NCBI GenBank assembly: GCA_024227975.1
Contig: JAAETV010000495.1
Coordinates: 1 to 6,806, forward strand
Reading direction: 5' to 3'
DNA: 6,806 nt
Source: Actinomycetes bacterium
Lineage (GTDB): Bacteria > Actinomycetota > Acidimicrobiia > Acidimicrobiales > SZUA-35
Shown one piece after another: positions 1,958-6,806 of this stretch (position 1 is its first letter; the number at the start of each line of letters is the position of its first letter). The notes under the pieces were generated by a model. That model was not told the DNA's origin. It did no database searches and saw only the letters and a list, made by a program, of their open reading frames with translations. The position numbers and the translations under genes are program-made.

Positions 1958-1971
1958 ATGACCTAAGCCTC
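1958..1971 (+). promoter_or_regulatory. DosR-box-like operator upstream of the single-domain USP gene
   Basis: The 14-mer ATGACCTAAGCCTC matches 10 of 14 bases of the stronger box at 5212-5225 and 6 of 10 half-site positions of the GGGAC-N4-GTCCC core of the DosR motif. It ends exactly 35 bp before the ATG at 2007, the same gap as the 5212 box has to its gene, putting its centre at -42.5 from the start codon. Weak alone; the shared spacing is what supports it. Confidence 0.5.
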
Positions 1972-1990
1972 TTCGCCTATTGGTCGCAGC

Positions 1991-2000
1991 GAGCGACGAT
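1991..2000 (+). promoter_or_regulatory. Element GAGCGACGAT before the USP start (-10-like or weak RBS)
   Basis: This 10-mer is at -16 to -7 relative to the ATG at 2007 and recurs with one mismatch (GAGAGACGAT) at the same place before the second USP gene (5910-5919). GACGAT resembles a degenerate TAnnnT -10 box for a leaderless transcript; GAGCGA could instead serve as a weak ribosome-binding site. Confidence 0.4.
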
Positions 2001-2006
2001 TGGTTC

Positions 2007-2447
2007 ATGAGGAAGATCATTGTTGGAATCGACGGCTCCGAGCAATCGACAGAAGCACTCCAATGGGCCCTCGACTATGCATCCCCCGGCGACCAGATCG
2101 TTGCCACCCATTCGTGGCAGCTTCCCCCGATGAGTGGTTTCGAGTTCCCGGCCTACAATCCGGCCGACGTCGAGGTCTACGCCAACCAATTGGTCGAGCG
2201 AGTGGTCTCCGAAACCGTTCCCGAAGACTCCGACGGCCCGAAGGTGATGATTTCGGTCCACCACGGTCACCCCGGTCGGGTCCTGATAGACGAGTCAGCG
2301 GGAGCTGACCTGATCGTTGTCGGGAGTCGGGGTTTTGGGGGGTTCCGAGGCCTCCTGCTCGGCTCGGTCAGTACCTATGTCGTTCACCACGCCACCTGCC
2401 CCGTCGTCATCATGCCCCATGATGGCCAAGAGCCAGACGATGCCTAA
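2007..2447 (+). CDS. Universal stress protein, single UspA domain with ATP motif
   Basis: A 146-residue UspA-family protein. It opens with the family pattern MRKIIVGIDGSEQS (beta-1 and the conserved Asp) and ends with CPVVIMP. The nucleotide-binding motif G-2x-G-9x-G-S is intact: G106, G109, G119-S120 within VVGSRGFGGFRGLLLGS, so it should bind ATP. The ATG at 2007 is preferred over an in-frame TTG at 1980 because the domain begins right at this Met. The gene is convergent with the sensor kinase and follows the CinA-like gene. Upstream are a DosR-box-like site (1958-1971) and GAGCGACGAT (1991-2000), suggesting control by the DevR-like regulator encoded nearby. In M. tuberculosis several DosR-regulon genes encode USPs, including Rv3134c beside devRS, so the association is expected. 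Confidence 0.93.
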   Translation: MRKIIVGIDGSEQSTEALQWALDYASPGDQIVATHSWQLPPMSGFEFPAYNPADVEVYANQLVERVVSETVPEDSDGPKVMISVHHGHPGRVLIDESAGADLIVVGSRGFGGFRGLLLGSVSTYVVHHATCPVVIMPHDGQEPDDA

Positions 2448-2448
2448 C

Positions 2449-2506
2449 GCCGTTCCTGAGCCGCCACAGGTCTAGCATCGGGGCCGGATCAATCGAGGGG
2501 AACGGC
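2449..2506. terminator. Inverted repeat across convergent gene ends, possible bidirectional terminator
   Basis: GCCGTTCC (2449-2456) is repeated in inverted form as GGAACGGC (2499-2506), with a 42-nt spacer. The repeat begins just after the USP stop codon and ends inside the last codons of the convergent kinase gene. Perfect 8-bp arms at this place could form a stem that ends transcription from either side, but the loop is long and there is no T-run, so support is modest. Confidence 0.28.
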
Positions 2507-4417
2507 CCAGCGGAATTCGCAACCAGCACCGGAGCCTTCGCCATAGTCGAGGCTGCCCCCTAGCGACATGGCCCGCTTCGTCAGGTTGCGAAGCCCGAAC
2601 CCCTGGGCCATCCCCGGGCGAAGCCCGATACCGTCGTCGACGACAACCACCGTGAGCTGGTTGTCGTCGACTGAAACCAGCACCGATGCGTTGCTGGCCT
2701 GAGCATGGCGCTCCACGTTCGACAACAGCTCGTTGACGGTCGGCAAGAGGTGGTTGACCACCACCGATGATAGGGACTCGATCTCACCATCGATTTCGAG
2801 CACCAGGTGGCTGCGACCCGAGGCTCGATGACGATCGATCAGCCGCCTCAGCTCACCGGCAACCGTGTCATCGGGTTGGCCAAGCTGGAAGATTGAATTG
2901 CGGACACTGTCGATCGTGTCGTCGAGCTCGACGACGGCCTCCCCGGCCCGATCAGCCAACAATTCAGGACGCCCAATGGATGCTTGGAGCCGCATTCCAG
3001 CGGCATAGAGCCGTTGGATGACAACGTCGTGCAGATCTCGGGCGATTCGCTCTCGGTCCTCGACCAGCAGCATCCGGCGTCGATCGGCCCTGGCTCGTGA
3101 CAAGACCAATGACACCGCGGCCTCGGCCGCCAACGATTGGGCAACGGTGAGATCATGCTCGCTGAACGGCGGGTCGTCGCTACCTCGGACGATGGCCAAG
3201 ATCCCTTCGACCGAGTTGGCGGTCCGCAATGGGAGCACAACGATTGGACCGACCAAGCGTTCCGCCCAGCCTGGTCGTTTCCCAACCGGGAGCACCCGAC
3301 CCAGCCCAGCGGGGGCGGGCACGACCTCGATCTCGGAGGTCTTCATGACCCGGCCGGCCACACTGTCAGCAGACAGGACGGTCTCGAACCAGTTCCGCTC
3401 CCTGATCTCATGGGTAGTCCTGACCTGAAGCGACCCGCTGTGATTTGGGGTGGCGACAAAGGCAAGGTCGACGGCCAACACGTTTCCCACTGCGGTCACG
3501 ATCAGCTGGGTAACCTCATCGATCGGCAACTCGTCGAGCGATGCCTTCCGGATCGCGGCCAGCGCAACCAGCAACTCCTCCCGCTGGTCCCGTTCCTGTT
3601 CAGCCGCGACCTGCCTGGTGATGTCGATGATGTGGACCAGGGACTGGCTGGCCTCACCGGTGGGGGCCAGCCGGGAGGTATTCACGACGGCCCACAGATG
3701 GCTACCGTCGGCCCGACGGTAGCGAAGCTCAGTCTGGTAGCTGGGTTGACCGTGCAAGAGGGCACGAGCCTGTCCGGTGTTCTGCTCCCTGTCTTCGGGA
3801 TGGGTCAGCTCGACACTGCTGTTACCGGCCAGCTCTTCGGTGCTGCGCCCCAACAGGGTGGCTAGAGCCTCGTTGGCCCTGACGATGGTCTGCGTCGCCG
3901 GGTCAGAGATATCGAGAATGGCCATAGGAACCGCAGCATCGTCGAAAGCCGACCGGAAGGCGGCCTCGCTGATCCGAAGGCGGCGGTCGGCCTCCTGACG
4001 GTTGGCCTCGAGCTCGGCCTCGGCCGCCACTCGCTCACTGACGTCGCGGACCACGACCATCACCAGGTCGTGCCCATCGATGGTCACTGGACTCAGCGCG
4101 ATGTCGACCGGAACCAGCTCACCTGACGCCGTCTGGGCCTCGAGCCGGGCCGTCGGATCACCCATGTTGCGAGGACGGGGCAGCTGACCGAAGCCTCCCC
4201 GATGATTGATATGGACCCCCCGGCGGGCATCTGGCACCAACAGCTCGACCGCCTGGCCGATCAGCTCCTCACCTGAGTAGCCGAGTTGATCGCGGCAGCG
4301 CTCGTTTGCCATCACGATCACGCCGTCGAAGTCGACAACGAGGATGGCGTCGGGGGCGGCCTCCAGGTAGTGATCAGCAACCATGAGATGGGGTAGATCG
4401 GCGGCGTCGACTGTCAT
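2489..4417 (-). CDS. Soluble PAS-PAS-GAF sensor histidine kinase, NarL/DevS class
   Basis: About 642 residues with no membrane segment, so a cytoplasmic sensor. Numbering from the overlapping GTG at 4420: PAS1 about 16-128 (ILVVDFDGVIVMANE), PAS2 about 150-272 (ending in HIIDITRQ), GAF about 285-440, then HisKA_3 with phospho-accepting His464 in ERIARDLHDVVIQRLYAAGM, and a HATPase with N box (NELLSNVERHA, about 563-573), G1 (DDGIGL, 595-600) and G2 (GFGLRNL). The kinase core is very like DevS/DosT of mycobacteria, but those have two GAF domains and no PAS. The start overlaps the regulator's stop codon (TGATG, or GTGA if GTG 4420 is used), so the two are translationally coupled and surely partners. 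The ligand is unknown. His70 in PAS1 lies where FixL has its haem-ligand His, so redox or oxygen sensing is possible but unproven. Confidence 0.93.
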   Translation of the reverse strand: MTVDAADLPHLMVADHYLEAAPDAILVVDFDGVIVMANERCRDQLGYSGEELIGQAVELLVPDARRGVHINHRGGFGQLPRPRNMGDPTARLEAQTASGELVPVDIALSPVTIDGHDLVMVVVRDVSERVAAEAELEANRQEADRRLRISEAAFRSAFDDAAVPMAILDISDPATQTIVRANEALATLLGRSTEELAGNSSVELTHPEDREQNTGQARALLHGQPSYQTELRYRRADGSHLWAVVNTSRLAPTGEASQSLVHIIDITRQVAAEQERDQREELLVALAAIRKASLDELPIDEVTQLIVTAVGNVLAVDLAFVATPNHSGSLQVRTTHEIRERNWFETVLSADSVAGRVMKTSEIEVVPAPAGLGRVLPVGKRPGWAERLVGPIVVLPLRTANSVEGILAIVRGSDDPPFSEHDLTVAQSLAAEAAVSLVLSRARADRRRMLLVEDRERIARDLHDVVIQRLYAAGMRLQASIGRPELLADRAGEAVVELDDTIDSVRNSIFQLGQPDDTVAGELRRLIDRHRASGRSHLVLEIDGEIESLSSVVVNHLLPTVNELLSNVERHAQASNASVLVSVDDNQLTVVVVDDGIGLRPGMAQGFGLRNLTKRAMSLGGSLDYGEGSGAGCEFRWAVPLD

Positions 4418-5136
4418 CACTCGTAGCGACGTCGCTGACGCTCCTCCAGCCTGGCGGCAAAAGCCGCAGCCTCTGTCCGGCGGCTCATACCAAGCTTGGC
4501 CAACATGTTCGAGACATAGTTCTTGACCGTCTTCTCGGCTAGGAACAGGGTCTCGGCGATCTGGCGGTTCGAGTAGCCATCGCCAATCAGATCAAAGATG
4601 CGGCGCTCCTGCTCCGTCAGTGCGTTGACCTTGCCTTCGTCACTGTCCTTCAGCCGATGGAGGCTCATCCGAACCGTTGCCGCGTCGAGGAGTTGGATTC
4701 CGGCCGCCACCTTGCGGATCGATTCCACCAGATCGTTGCTCCTGATCTGCTTCAACACATAGCCGGCGGCACCAGCCATGGCCGCGTCGAGCAGGGCCTG
4801 GTCATCGGCAAACGAGGTGAGGATCAGGCAGGCGACCTCGGGGTGGGCGGAGCGGATGTCACGGCATACCTCGATGCCGTTCCCTTCCTCGAGGCGGACA
4901 TCAAGGACGGCAACGTCAGGGCTGGTATCAGCAACGACACGGATGGCCTCGGTTGCAGTCGCAGCTTCGCTCACGACCTGCATGTCGGGCTCGGTGTCGA
5001 CCAGATCGGCCACCCCTCTACGGACGATCTCGTGGTCGTCGAGCAGGAACACCCGGATGGGGGAACCCTCTTCATGGCCTGAACCAGCCGGTTGAGTTTC
5101 GGAGTCCTTACTGATCACCACAGACGAGTATTTCAC
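4417..5136 (-). CDS. devR: DevR/DosR-like response regulator, NarL/LuxR family
   Basis: A receiver plus LuxR-type HTH regulator that matches DevR/DosR along its length: RVFLLDDHEIVRRG, phospho-acceptor Asp in VLDVRLEEGNGIEVCRD, switch Thr in LILTSF, Lys in GYVLK, and the HTH segment LTEQERR...SNRQIAETLFLAEKTVKNYVS. The motif EKTVKN holds the two Lys and the Asn that contact DNA in M. tuberculosis DosR, so a similar box is expected. The start is unsure: GTG 5136 (GGAG just upstream, short spacing) is used here; ATG 5193, ATG 5208 and GTG 5121 are also in frame. The stretch 5085-5193 has weaker third-position G/C and no domain match, favouring a late start. The overlapping kinase is its partner. 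It is divergent from the SRPBCC-like gene and may control itself through the box at 5212-5225. Confidence 0.9.
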   Translation of the reverse strand: MKYSSVVISKDSETQPAGSGHEEGSPIRVFLLDDHEIVRRGVADLVDTEPDMQVVSEAATATEAIRVVADTSPDVAVLDVRLEEGNGIEVCRDIRSAHPEVACLILTSFADDQALLDAAMAGAAGYVLKQIRSNDLVESIRKVAAGIQLLDAATVRMSLHRLKDSDEGKVNALTEQERRIFDLIGDGYSNRQIAETLFLAEKTVKNYVSNMLAKLGMSRRTEAAAFAARLEERQRRRYE

Positions 5137-5211
5137 CTTCTCCGTTGTTTCACTGCGCGGGCCTATCGGGCAGAGGAAAAGGTCACGAGCCATGGGTGAC
5201 CCCATCATCGA

Positions 5212-5225
5212 GGGACCTAGGCCCC
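5212..5225. promoter_or_regulatory. DosR-box-like palindromic operator in a divergent intergenic region
   Basis: GGGACCTAGGCCCC agrees with the DosR core GGGAC-N4-GTCCC at 9 of 10 half-site positions and is palindromic at 12 of 14 bases. It lies between the divergent regulator and SRPBCC-like genes, ending 35 bp before the ATG at 5261 (centre at -42.5). That is where a class II activator overlapping the -35 region would bind. It is also about 75 bp upstream of the chosen regulator start, so autoregulation is possible. This is the strongest of the three boxes. Confidence 0.65.
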
Positions 5226-5250
5226 TGGCCAGTGCGATCGAACCATGGTC

Positions 5251-5256
5251 AAGGTG
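5251..5256 (+). promoter_or_regulatory. Ribosome-binding site AAGGTG deciding the start at 5261
   Basis: AAGGTG is complementary to the 16S anti-Shine-Dalgarno and its AAGG core lies 6 nt before ATG 5261. This favours that start over the in-frame ATG at 5192, which would overlap the longest versions of the divergent regulator and swallow the operator. Confidence 0.55.
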
Positions 5257-5260
5257 TGGT

Positions 5261-5830
5261 ATGGAGAACCGTCACCTCAGCCCTCCTTCGCTGGCTTCGG
5301 TTGGTGAGTCGCGGTGTCTCTATGTCCATGACTTCGTCAGGGTCGACCTGCCGTTCGATGCCGTGGTCGGGGCCTTCACCCATTTCGTGACCTCAGACAT
5401 GATGCGTCAGCTCGTTTCCGAGGCGTGGGACGACGAGTCAGCCGAACTGACCGAGGTCCTACCTGAGATCGCCAAGGGTGGGAACACCGGAGGCCAGCCC
5501 CACTCAGATGTCGTGGTAACACTGGGCCACCGGAGAGCACGTCGTGATGCCCTGATCCTCTCTCTGAGCTGGACCGCCCTCTCTGACCGCTGGGTCCCTC
5601 CCTTGGAGGCTGACCTCGAGATCGTCAGTTTCGGTCCGGCCAGGACCCACCTCCACGTGCTTGGCCAATCACAATTGCGACCCCAGACCCCTCTTTTCAC
5701 CGAACGGGCGAGCCTCGAGCATCGCCTCACCGTCGCCGTTGTCCGCCACTTTCTACGCCTGCTGGCCGATGTGGTGTCGACGAATGCCCCGCCGGATCGC
5801 CAGACCCAATCGGGCAGCCAACCTAGGTAG
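5261..5830 (+). CDS. SRPBCC-like hypothetical protein
   Basis: A 189-residue soluble protein without signal peptide or membrane helix. The start ATG 5261 follows AAGGTG at good spacing. The middle and end resemble, from memory, a group of actinobacterial hypotheticals with an SRPBCC (START-like) fold: a strand SLSWTAL (residues 101-107), then WVPPLEADLEIVSF (111-124), a T-x-L-x-x-x-G-like strand (THLHVLGQSQLRPQTP, 129-144), and a long C-terminal helix HRLTVAVVRHFLRLLADVV (154-172) that would cover the hydrophobic cavity. Such a fold usually binds a small hydrophobic ligand, but no catalytic residues can be named. The last ~17 residues are polar and probably disordered. It sits between the regulator and the tandem USP gene and has the best DosR-like box, so it is probably part of the same stress regulon. 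Function unknown. Confidence 0.75.
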   Translation: MENRHLSPPSLASVGESRCLYVHDFVRVDLPFDAVVGAFTHFVTSDMMRQLVSEAWDDESAELTEVLPEIAKGGNTGGQPHSDVVVTLGHRRARRDALILSLSWTALSDRWVPPLEADLEIVSFGPARTHLHVLGQSQLRPQTPLFTERASLEHRLTVAVVRHFLRLLADVVSTNAPPDRQTQSGSQPR

Positions 5831-5875
5831 TCGGAGTCCAGGAGTCGGTGCCGGCAGCTCCCCAGGAACTGTCTT

Positions 5876-5889
5876 GTGACAAACGACCC
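5876..5889 (+). promoter_or_regulatory. DosR-box-like operator upstream of the tandem USP gene
   Basis: GTGACAAACGACCC matches the GGGAC-N4-GTCCC core at 8 of 10 half-site positions. It lies in the 95-bp gap after the SRPBCC-like gene and ends 36 bp before ATG 5926, one base more than the other two boxes. The agreement in both sequence and position argues for a real operator and for separate transcription of the USP gene. Confidence 0.6.
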
Positions 5890-5909: not shown

Positions 5910-5919
5910 GAGAGACGAT
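5910..5919 (+). promoter_or_regulatory. Element GAGAGACGAT before the tandem USP start (-10-like or weak RBS)
   Basis: This 10-mer is at -16 to -7 from ATG 5926 and differs by one base from the element at the same position before the other USP gene (1991-2000). GACGAT may be a degenerate -10 box of a leaderless promoter; the purine-rich GAGAGA may instead act as a weak ribosome-binding site. Confidence 0.4.
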
Positions 5920-5925
5920 GACGCG

Positions 5926-6806
5926 ATGTTCGACGATGTGCTGGTGCTTCTGGACGGGTCAACCGATTCCGCCCGGGCGATCGGCCCGGCGGCCGCCATC
6001 GCCCGTTACCTCAACGTCACCCTCCGAGCTGTCGGGTTCCATGAAGGTCCGACCAGCCACTACCTGGCCACCGCTATCAACGACCAGATCCAGGGTCGGG
6101 GCGATATCAGGCTCGAGGTGACCATCGAACCCCTGGTCAAGTCGGTCGGGGAATCGCTGTCCGGTGTGTTGGCCGATCACCAGACCTCCCTCATCTGCAT
6201 GTCAACCCATGGCCGGGGTCGCTCAGCCGCCCTGGTTGGCAGTGGGGCCTCGGAAGTGCTCGATGTCGCCCAATGCCCGATACTGCTCGTCGGGCCAGGC
6301 TATGGGGCATCCAGCTTCCGTTGTCACGGACCCCTCATCGTTGCCGTCAACGGCAGCGACGACTCACGCACCATCCTCTCCGCCGCTCAGGCTTTCGGTA
6401 GTTTCTTCGACTACGACTTGGAGATCGCAACCGTCGTCGACCCCAAGGCTTCGTCCCAATTCGAGCAGCTCCAAGCATCGTGGGGAGAGGGCGACAGTAC
6501 CGCCATCGAGTCGGCCGGTGTCCGCAACGCCGCCTTGGCCACCGAGGCCGAGACCAACGCTCCCGTTTCGTTCACCGTCTTGTACGGGGCAAACCCGGCC
6601 ACCGCCCTCACCAGCTACGCCACCGAGACCCATGCCACCCTGTTGGCCATGGCCACCCAGAACCCGACTGGGATGGAGCGGGTGGTGTCGGGCAGCACAC
6701 TGGCCGATGTGGCCCGTTCTGCTCCCTGCCCCATCCTGGCCATCAAGGCACCCAAAGGGGGCCCGGCACCCAAAGGGGGCCCGGCACCCAAAGGGGGCCC
6801 GGCACC
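5926..6806 (+). CDS. Tandem two-domain universal stress protein (3' partial)
   Basis: The frame is open from ATG 5926 to the right edge (293 codons seen, no stop). Domain 1 covers about residues 1-124 (FDDVLVLLDGSTDSA to CPILLVG) and domain 2 about 135-274 (GPLIVAVNGSDDS to CPILAIK). Tandem USPs of this size are common in actinobacteria. The ATP motif G-2x-G-9x-G-S is eroded: domain 1 has S-TH-G then only 8 residues before GS (S93 to S106), and domain 2 has A-TQ-N-9x-GS (A243 to S257), losing two glycines. The conserved early Asp is Asn142 in domain 2. ATP binding is therefore doubtful, especially in domain 2. After the second domain the chain enters APKGGP repeats and leaves the window. A DosR-like box at 5876-5889 precedes the gene. 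Confidence 0.9.
   Translation, partial: MFDDVLVLLDGSTDSARAIGPAAAIARYLNVTLRAVGFHEGPTSHYLATAINDQIQGRGDIRLEVTIEPLVKSVGESLSGVLADHQTSLICMSTHGRGRSAALVGSGASEVLDVAQCPILLVGPGYGASSFRCHGPLIVAVNGSDDSRTILSAAQAFGSFFDYDLEIATVVDPKASSQFEQLQASWGEGDSTAIESAGVRNAALATEAETNAPVSFTVLYGANPATALTSYATETHATLLAMATQNPTGMERVVSGSTLADVARSAPCPILAIKAPKGGPAPKGGPAPKGGPA
6748..6806 (+). repeat. 18-bp in-frame tandem repeat encoding APKGGP
   Basis: GCACCCAAAGGGGGCCCG is repeated exactly: 6748-6765, 6766-6783, 6784-6801, then GCACC to the edge, about 3.3 copies with no mismatches. Because 18 is a multiple of three, each copy adds Ala-Pro-Lys-Gly-Gly-Pro to the USP C-terminus, beyond the folded domain. It may be a true flexible, basic tail that varies in copy number, or the place where an assembly stopped. 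Confidence 0.9.

Follow-up and report, generated by a model that had tools for sequence, protein, structure and literature searches.

The window, by which we mean the whole 6,806-nucleotide stretch of DNA analyzed here, appears to carry the DosR/OsdR two-component system in an Acidimicrobiia form, together with three of its targets. On comparative evidence from sequence, we assign a probability of about 0.85 to a DosR/OsdR-type system that activates class II, partly leaderless promoters of universal stress protein (USP) genes and other stress genes. By sequence kinship, the window comes from a member of the Acidimicrobiia; the nearest relatives of its regulator come from Acidimicrobiales assemblies, and an assembly labelled Actinomycetia bacterium encodes a protein with 99% identity to its SRPBCC-like protein. 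The window also encodes the end of a HAMP-HisKA kinase, a zinc-ribbon-like protein and a CinA-like protein. The genes, boxes and predicted -10 hexamers under discussion are as follows.

2007..2447, forward strand: single-domain universal stress protein (Pfam Usp, 6.6e-30), predicted leaderless target
2489..4420, reverse strand: sensor kinase, PAS-PAS-GAF-HisKA_3-HATPase (Pfam), likely partner of the regulator
4417..5208, reverse strand: DosR/OsdR-type response regulator, receiver and GerE domains (Pfam), with helix EKTVKN (sequence)
5261..5830, forward strand: SRPBCC/START-like protein without a Pfam family, predicted leaderless target
5926..6804, forward strand, running off the window: tandem-domain universal stress protein (Pfam Usp, two stretches, 1.2e-29), predicted leaderless target
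1958-1971, forward strand: box 1, DosR-type, ATGACCTAAGCCTC, 35 bp upstream of the USP ATG at 2007; weak
5212-5225, forward strand: box 2, DosR-type, GGGACCTAGGCCCC, 35 bp upstream of the ATG at 5261; strongest in the window
5876-5889, forward strand: box 3, DosR-type, GTGACAAACGACCC, 36 bp upstream of the tandem USP ATG at 5926
1995-2000, forward strand: predicted -10 hexamer GACGAT, 23 bp after box 1, ending 6 bp before the ATG
5250-5255, forward strand: predicted -10 hexamer CAAGGT, 24 bp after box 2 (+25 spacing form)
5914-5919, forward strand: predicted -10 hexamer GACGAT, 24 bp after box 3 (+25 spacing form)

An initial annotation of this DNA had placed three DosR-like 14-mers at a fixed distance before two USP genes and an SRPBCC-like gene, and had pointed to a regulator with the motif EKTVKN. 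These claims hold: by direct reading, the boxes end 35, 35 and 36 bp before their start codons and match GGGACN4GTCCC at 6/10 (box 1), 9/10 (box 2) and 8/10 (box 3) core bases, the motif is present in the regulator sequence, and Pfam identifies the genes starting at 2007 and 5926 as USPs. A hexamer of the form NANNNT is read at or adjoining the expected place in all three window promoters; for boxes 2 and 3 it sits one base beyond the commonest spacing. Autoregulation through box 2, read on the minus strand, was considered and rejected, because that strand shows neither an ANNNT at the offset required nor a start codon at a gap of 35 or 36 (gap being the distance in base pairs from box to start codon).

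The tally of sites in the window is no proof, and position is the evidence, since GGGACN4GTCCC with at most 3 mismatches was found 41 times against 63 expected from shuffles (no enrichment); box 1, with 4 mismatches, lies outside those 41. A matrix built from 38 sites of other genomes, with the window excluded, ranked box 2 first, box 3 second and box 1 eighth among 6787 window positions (scores 17.8, 16.1 and 3.0), and the per-position p values at the tested gap were 1.5e-4, 2.9e-4 and 1.2e-3, respectively, with eight starts examined. Five other window starts (CinA, an alternative SRPBCC start at 5192, the zinc-ribbon-like gene, the kinase and the regulator) had no box at gaps 35 and 36, with matrix scores of -14 or lower. 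That the fixed distances are mere coincidence in G+C-rich DNA draws on the shuffle result and on the weakness of box 1, where it keeps most ground, but those position-specific p values and the recurrence of the same gap in relatives (below) make it scarcely credible. Box 1 is weak by itself, and what speaks for it is where it lies, the -10 hexamer that follows it and the related USP genes.

Relatives of the regulator are encoded at 79 loci, three of them remote (L077 to L079), and USPs and kinases often lie near them. A box-like site precedes the start of the USPs of L001, L003, L005 and L007 by 35-36 bp; the L003 site is even weaker than box 1 (5/10 core bases), and the L007 site has no hexamer. 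The USP and the kinase of L001, L003 and L005 are convergent, like those of the window. Two further SRPBCC genes were inspected upstream, and that of L002 shows a box at gap 35. Across 175 upstream regions (the relatives' loci plus the window, with L071 and L077 to L079 left out), 18 of 85 matrix hits above 6 fell at gap 35-36 against a mean of 0.94 per 2 bp, the matrix having been trained on sites in those same regions and not on site positions. An unguided dyad search placed the GGGACN4GTCCC dyad only 14th (95 occurrences against 39.8 expected); many of the dyads ranked above it reflect coding periodicity, and TAGGGN8, in 10th place, could be this very box together with flanking bases.

Whole genomes gave the same picture. 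The box pattern GGGACNWWNGNCCCT matched 117 times in the genomes of 20 relatives, which were chosen for having the regulator, against 17 times for the reversed control; with an ATG 20-50 bp further on, the count was 75 against 5 (a site may count repeatedly). For the promoter layout, we took 80 stretches from 18 of the genomes, holding 101 distinct sites picked by box sequence alone (12 of about 113 distinct sites lay outside the retrieved stretches). ANNNT, with A at +24 and T at +28 after the box, occurred at 65 of the 101 sites and one base later (+25) at 18 more; at each of 68 other offsets, it occurred at 0-7 of the 101 sites, and on the opposite side of the box it reached at most 8/101, at +15 and +24. 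Control boxes with permuted arms had the -10 element in 1/20 cases, compared with 57/102 for the real box in the sample of that count. An A was enriched at +35, the expected transcription start (39/101), and ATG-started open reading frames of at least 80 amino acids began at gap 35-36 in 20/99 cases against 1.6 expected. An ATG or GTG start with an open reading frame at gap 33-38 was found for 21 of the 65 promoter-like sites and was absent for the other 44, so that leaderless starts would be common and not universal (about a third of promoter-like sites).

The box centre at about -42.5, counted from a transcription start at the ATG, and the -10 element at its usual distance place the regulator where a class II activator would stand. 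The class II geometry and near-leaderless starts of the initial annotation are, in this respect, supported by the relatives. As we reconstruct the system, the kinase (2489-4420) would phosphorylate the response regulator (4417-5208), which would bind the GGGACN4GTCCC-like boxes as a dimer. At each predicted target, the box centre lies about 42 bp before the start codon, the NANNNT -10 follows 23-24 bp after the box, and the start codon falls at or beside the expected transcription start. The bound regulator, at the -35 position, would touch sigma and recruit the sigma-A polymerase, yielding leaderless or near-leaderless mRNAs for the two USPs and the SRPBCC-like protein. Activation instead of repression, the transcription starts and a signal of the hypoxia or NO type are all things that we infer. 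A box over the -35 place would suit occlusion by a repressor equally well; yet DevR activates transcription where its box overlaps the -35 in this way, according to PMC3029386, and a rigid spacing from box to -10 is expected of an activator that contacts polymerase, where an occluding repressor should tolerate shifts. We regard repression as highly improbable and retain activation.

Only single boxes were seen in the window, with no pairs, in contrast to Mycobacterium DevR, which binds two or more boxes cooperatively (PMC3029386). Among the 65 promoter-like sites of relatives, likewise, only 4 had a relaxed neighbour 25-26 bp upstream. Paired boxes before USPs are present in L014 and L015.

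The regulator has receiver and GerE domains, and its closest relative among solved structures is DevR/DosR (3c3w, 222.5 bits), followed by VraR (132.6 bits). In the alignment with DevR, DVAVLDVRL and FLAEKTVKNYVS are identical in both proteins, as is the recognition helix, so that by identity to DevR the regulator has the phosphorylatable Asp and the DNA-contacting helix. This helix makes the DNA contacts in DosR-type regulators. A DNA-binding K182 is named in a published abstract. MadR was the best named NCBIfam model, at a score under its cut-off (180.7 against 300). The first ATG of the regulator (5208) is separated from box 2 by a mere 3 bp, and in many relatives the alignment does not begin until residue 45-51; for these reasons, the true start probably lies downstream of 5208, with a GTG at 5136 as a candidate.

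The neighbouring kinase is the likely partner of this regulator. Its catalytic (ATPase) domain, taken alone, is closest to DosT. The mycobacterial DosS (DevS) and DosT kinases have two tandem GAF domains, the first with haem; the kinase here differs, Pfam giving PAS-PAS-GAF, and so does its class, Acidimicrobiia. Its first PAS resembles the haem-PAS oxygen sensors FixL and DosP, at low similarity (34 bits for FixL). His69 of this domain aligns with a His of FixL, which we take to be the haem ligand of FixL, and is conserved in the best match from every one of 43 loci, though these best matches need not all be partner kinases. Haem sensing by the first PAS is thus a lead and not a result. In the kinases of L002, L013, L014 and L015, the aligned PAS domain looks more FixL-like.

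Across 148 genomes of the class, the combination of box, 23 bp and ANNNT was matched 114 times, in 52 of them, and the control gave 2 matches. The regulator (E<=1e-40) was present in 78 of the 148, including 47 of the 52 genomes with the motif and 31 of the 96 without it; both were present in 47 genomes, the match only in 5, the regulator only in 31 and neither in 65. Fisher tests, which ignore shared ancestry and incomplete assemblies, gave 2.7e-12 for all genomes, 7.4e-6 for the 101 of at least 2 Mb and 3.0e-4 for the 80 of at least 2.5 Mb; the centre genome had been chosen for having both. The strict combined match was absent in 31 of 78 regulator-bearing genomes and present in 5 of 70 without a regulator hit. 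The local DosR-type regulon of the initial annotation stands as DosR-type, DevR being the best solved relative, and falls as merely local.

These counts bear on the possibility that another transcription factor, such as a different NarL-family regulator, binds the boxes and that the regulator beside them is incidental. Genomes of this class are rich in regulators of this broad kind, with up to 96 first-look candidates per genome, and 5 genomes held combined matches without a regulator hit. Nevertheless, the box fits the DosR consensus and some OsdR sites given in the literature, the recognition helix is that of DevR, motif and regulator co-occur in 47/52 genomes, and seven relatives (L026, L034, L036, L047, L049, L054 and L061) have a box 35-38 bp upstream of the regulator gene. 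We consider a different factor improbable and take the neighbouring DosR-type regulator to be the one that would bind.

More broadly, the Acidimicrobiia might run a class-wide DosR-type regulon in which a FixL-like haem-PAS kinase replaces the haem-GAF sensor and a single rigid arrangement (box, 23-24 bp, NANNNT and often the start codon) connects the targets; this is a tentative proposal that we would not yet favor. If true, the regulon of uncultured genomes would be readable from sequence alone. Beyond the class, 60 Actinomycetes sites from 10 genomes had ANNNT at +24 in 18 cases and at +25 in 15, the next best offset having 6; these sites were hand-chosen from 128 matches in 40 genomes (control, 40), mostly match-rich ones. 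Three further regions around related regulators (one Nonomuraea and two Streptomyces) add weak support, with ANNNT at +25 in 3/27 loose boxes and at +24 in 1/27. The spacing from box to -10 seems general to the phylum, boxes 2 and 3 showing its +25 form.

Among the closest known systems is DosR/DevR-DosS/DosT of Mycobacterium, which is alike in regulator sequence and recognition helix, in box and -10 element (PMC6448022), in box position (PMC3029386) and in USP targets. The DosR consensus of Mycobacterium smegmatis is GGGACTTNNGNCCCT with ANNNT as the -10 (PMC6448022), mycobacterial -10 elements are ANNNT without a -35 consensus (PMC6448022, PMC8022548), and the box proximal to the transcription start overlaps the -35 (PMC3029386). 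A DosR-type regulon outside mycobacteria, as proposed by the initial annotation, is supported by the comparative data and already known in kind from OsdR of Streptomyces coelicolor, whose regulon with OsdK also includes USPs and pyruvate phosphate dikinase (PMC5069765). Some OsdR sites listed there, such as AGGGACCTTCGGCCCC, have the 14-base core in common with the boxes here; unlike these, the OsdR consensus has GGGCC arms, and the distance from the listed OsdR sites to the start codon varies (PMC5069765), where the gap here is often 35-36. In the literature searched, we found no joint mention of Acidimicrobi- and DosR. Our reading would extend the hypoxia/dormancy switch of mycobacteria and Streptomyces to a class that is represented here mainly by metagenome assemblies, and the strict promoter rule (23-24 bp from box to -10) would make target genes predictable from sequence, among them an SRPBCC-like family without a Pfam name.

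Predicted targets were reading frames after promoter-like sites, chosen by length and not by a gene caller; 73 of 76 were scanned with Pfam (one each from L138, L199 and L206 was dropped). Tallied over the best 25 of 73 families, USP was found in 14 frames, cyclic-nucleotide-monophosphate (cNMP)-binding domains in 4, cupredoxin in 3, multicopper oxidase in 3, pyruvate phosphate dikinase in 2, CBS in 2 and receiver and GerE domains in 2; L138 and L139 are two close relatives, and the USPs there are partly counted twice. One predicted target is an iron-sulfur cluster repair protein, and another is a homologue of the window SRPBCC-like protein (33% identity, start at gap 36). Boxes of the GGGACN4GTCCC type are found upstream of USP and other stress genes, at the -35 place of promoters with a sigma-A type -10. 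In Streptomyces clavuligerus (L345:14318-15645), a gene for a protein with a cyclic-nucleotide-binding domain adjoins a related regulator; the same domain is the one that recurs in 4 of the 73 predicted Acidimicrobiia targets.

The SRPBCC-like protein (5261-5830) had no match in Pfam or NCBIfam, and 34 related proteins were found. Eight residues (D24, F25, W56, R92, R94, W104, H130 and H132) are invariant in 33 aligned sequences, which hints at a conserved pocket. An AlphaFold model (pLDDT 85.3) was searched with Foldseek, and 20 of the 25 PDB matches at E<=0.001 had titles of the helix-grip type (Bet v 1, aromatase/cyclase, cytokinin-binding, norcoclaurine synthase or START proteins), with modest TM-scores (0.26-0.52) and large rmsd. 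These 20 presumably belong to the SRPBCC/START superfamily, and the model suggests an SRPBCC-like (helix-grip) fold at modest scores.

The tandem USP closes with an APKGGP repeat, which a short tandem repeat of about 18 bp encodes at 6750-6806; this region reaches the window end and may be a contig-end assembly effect.
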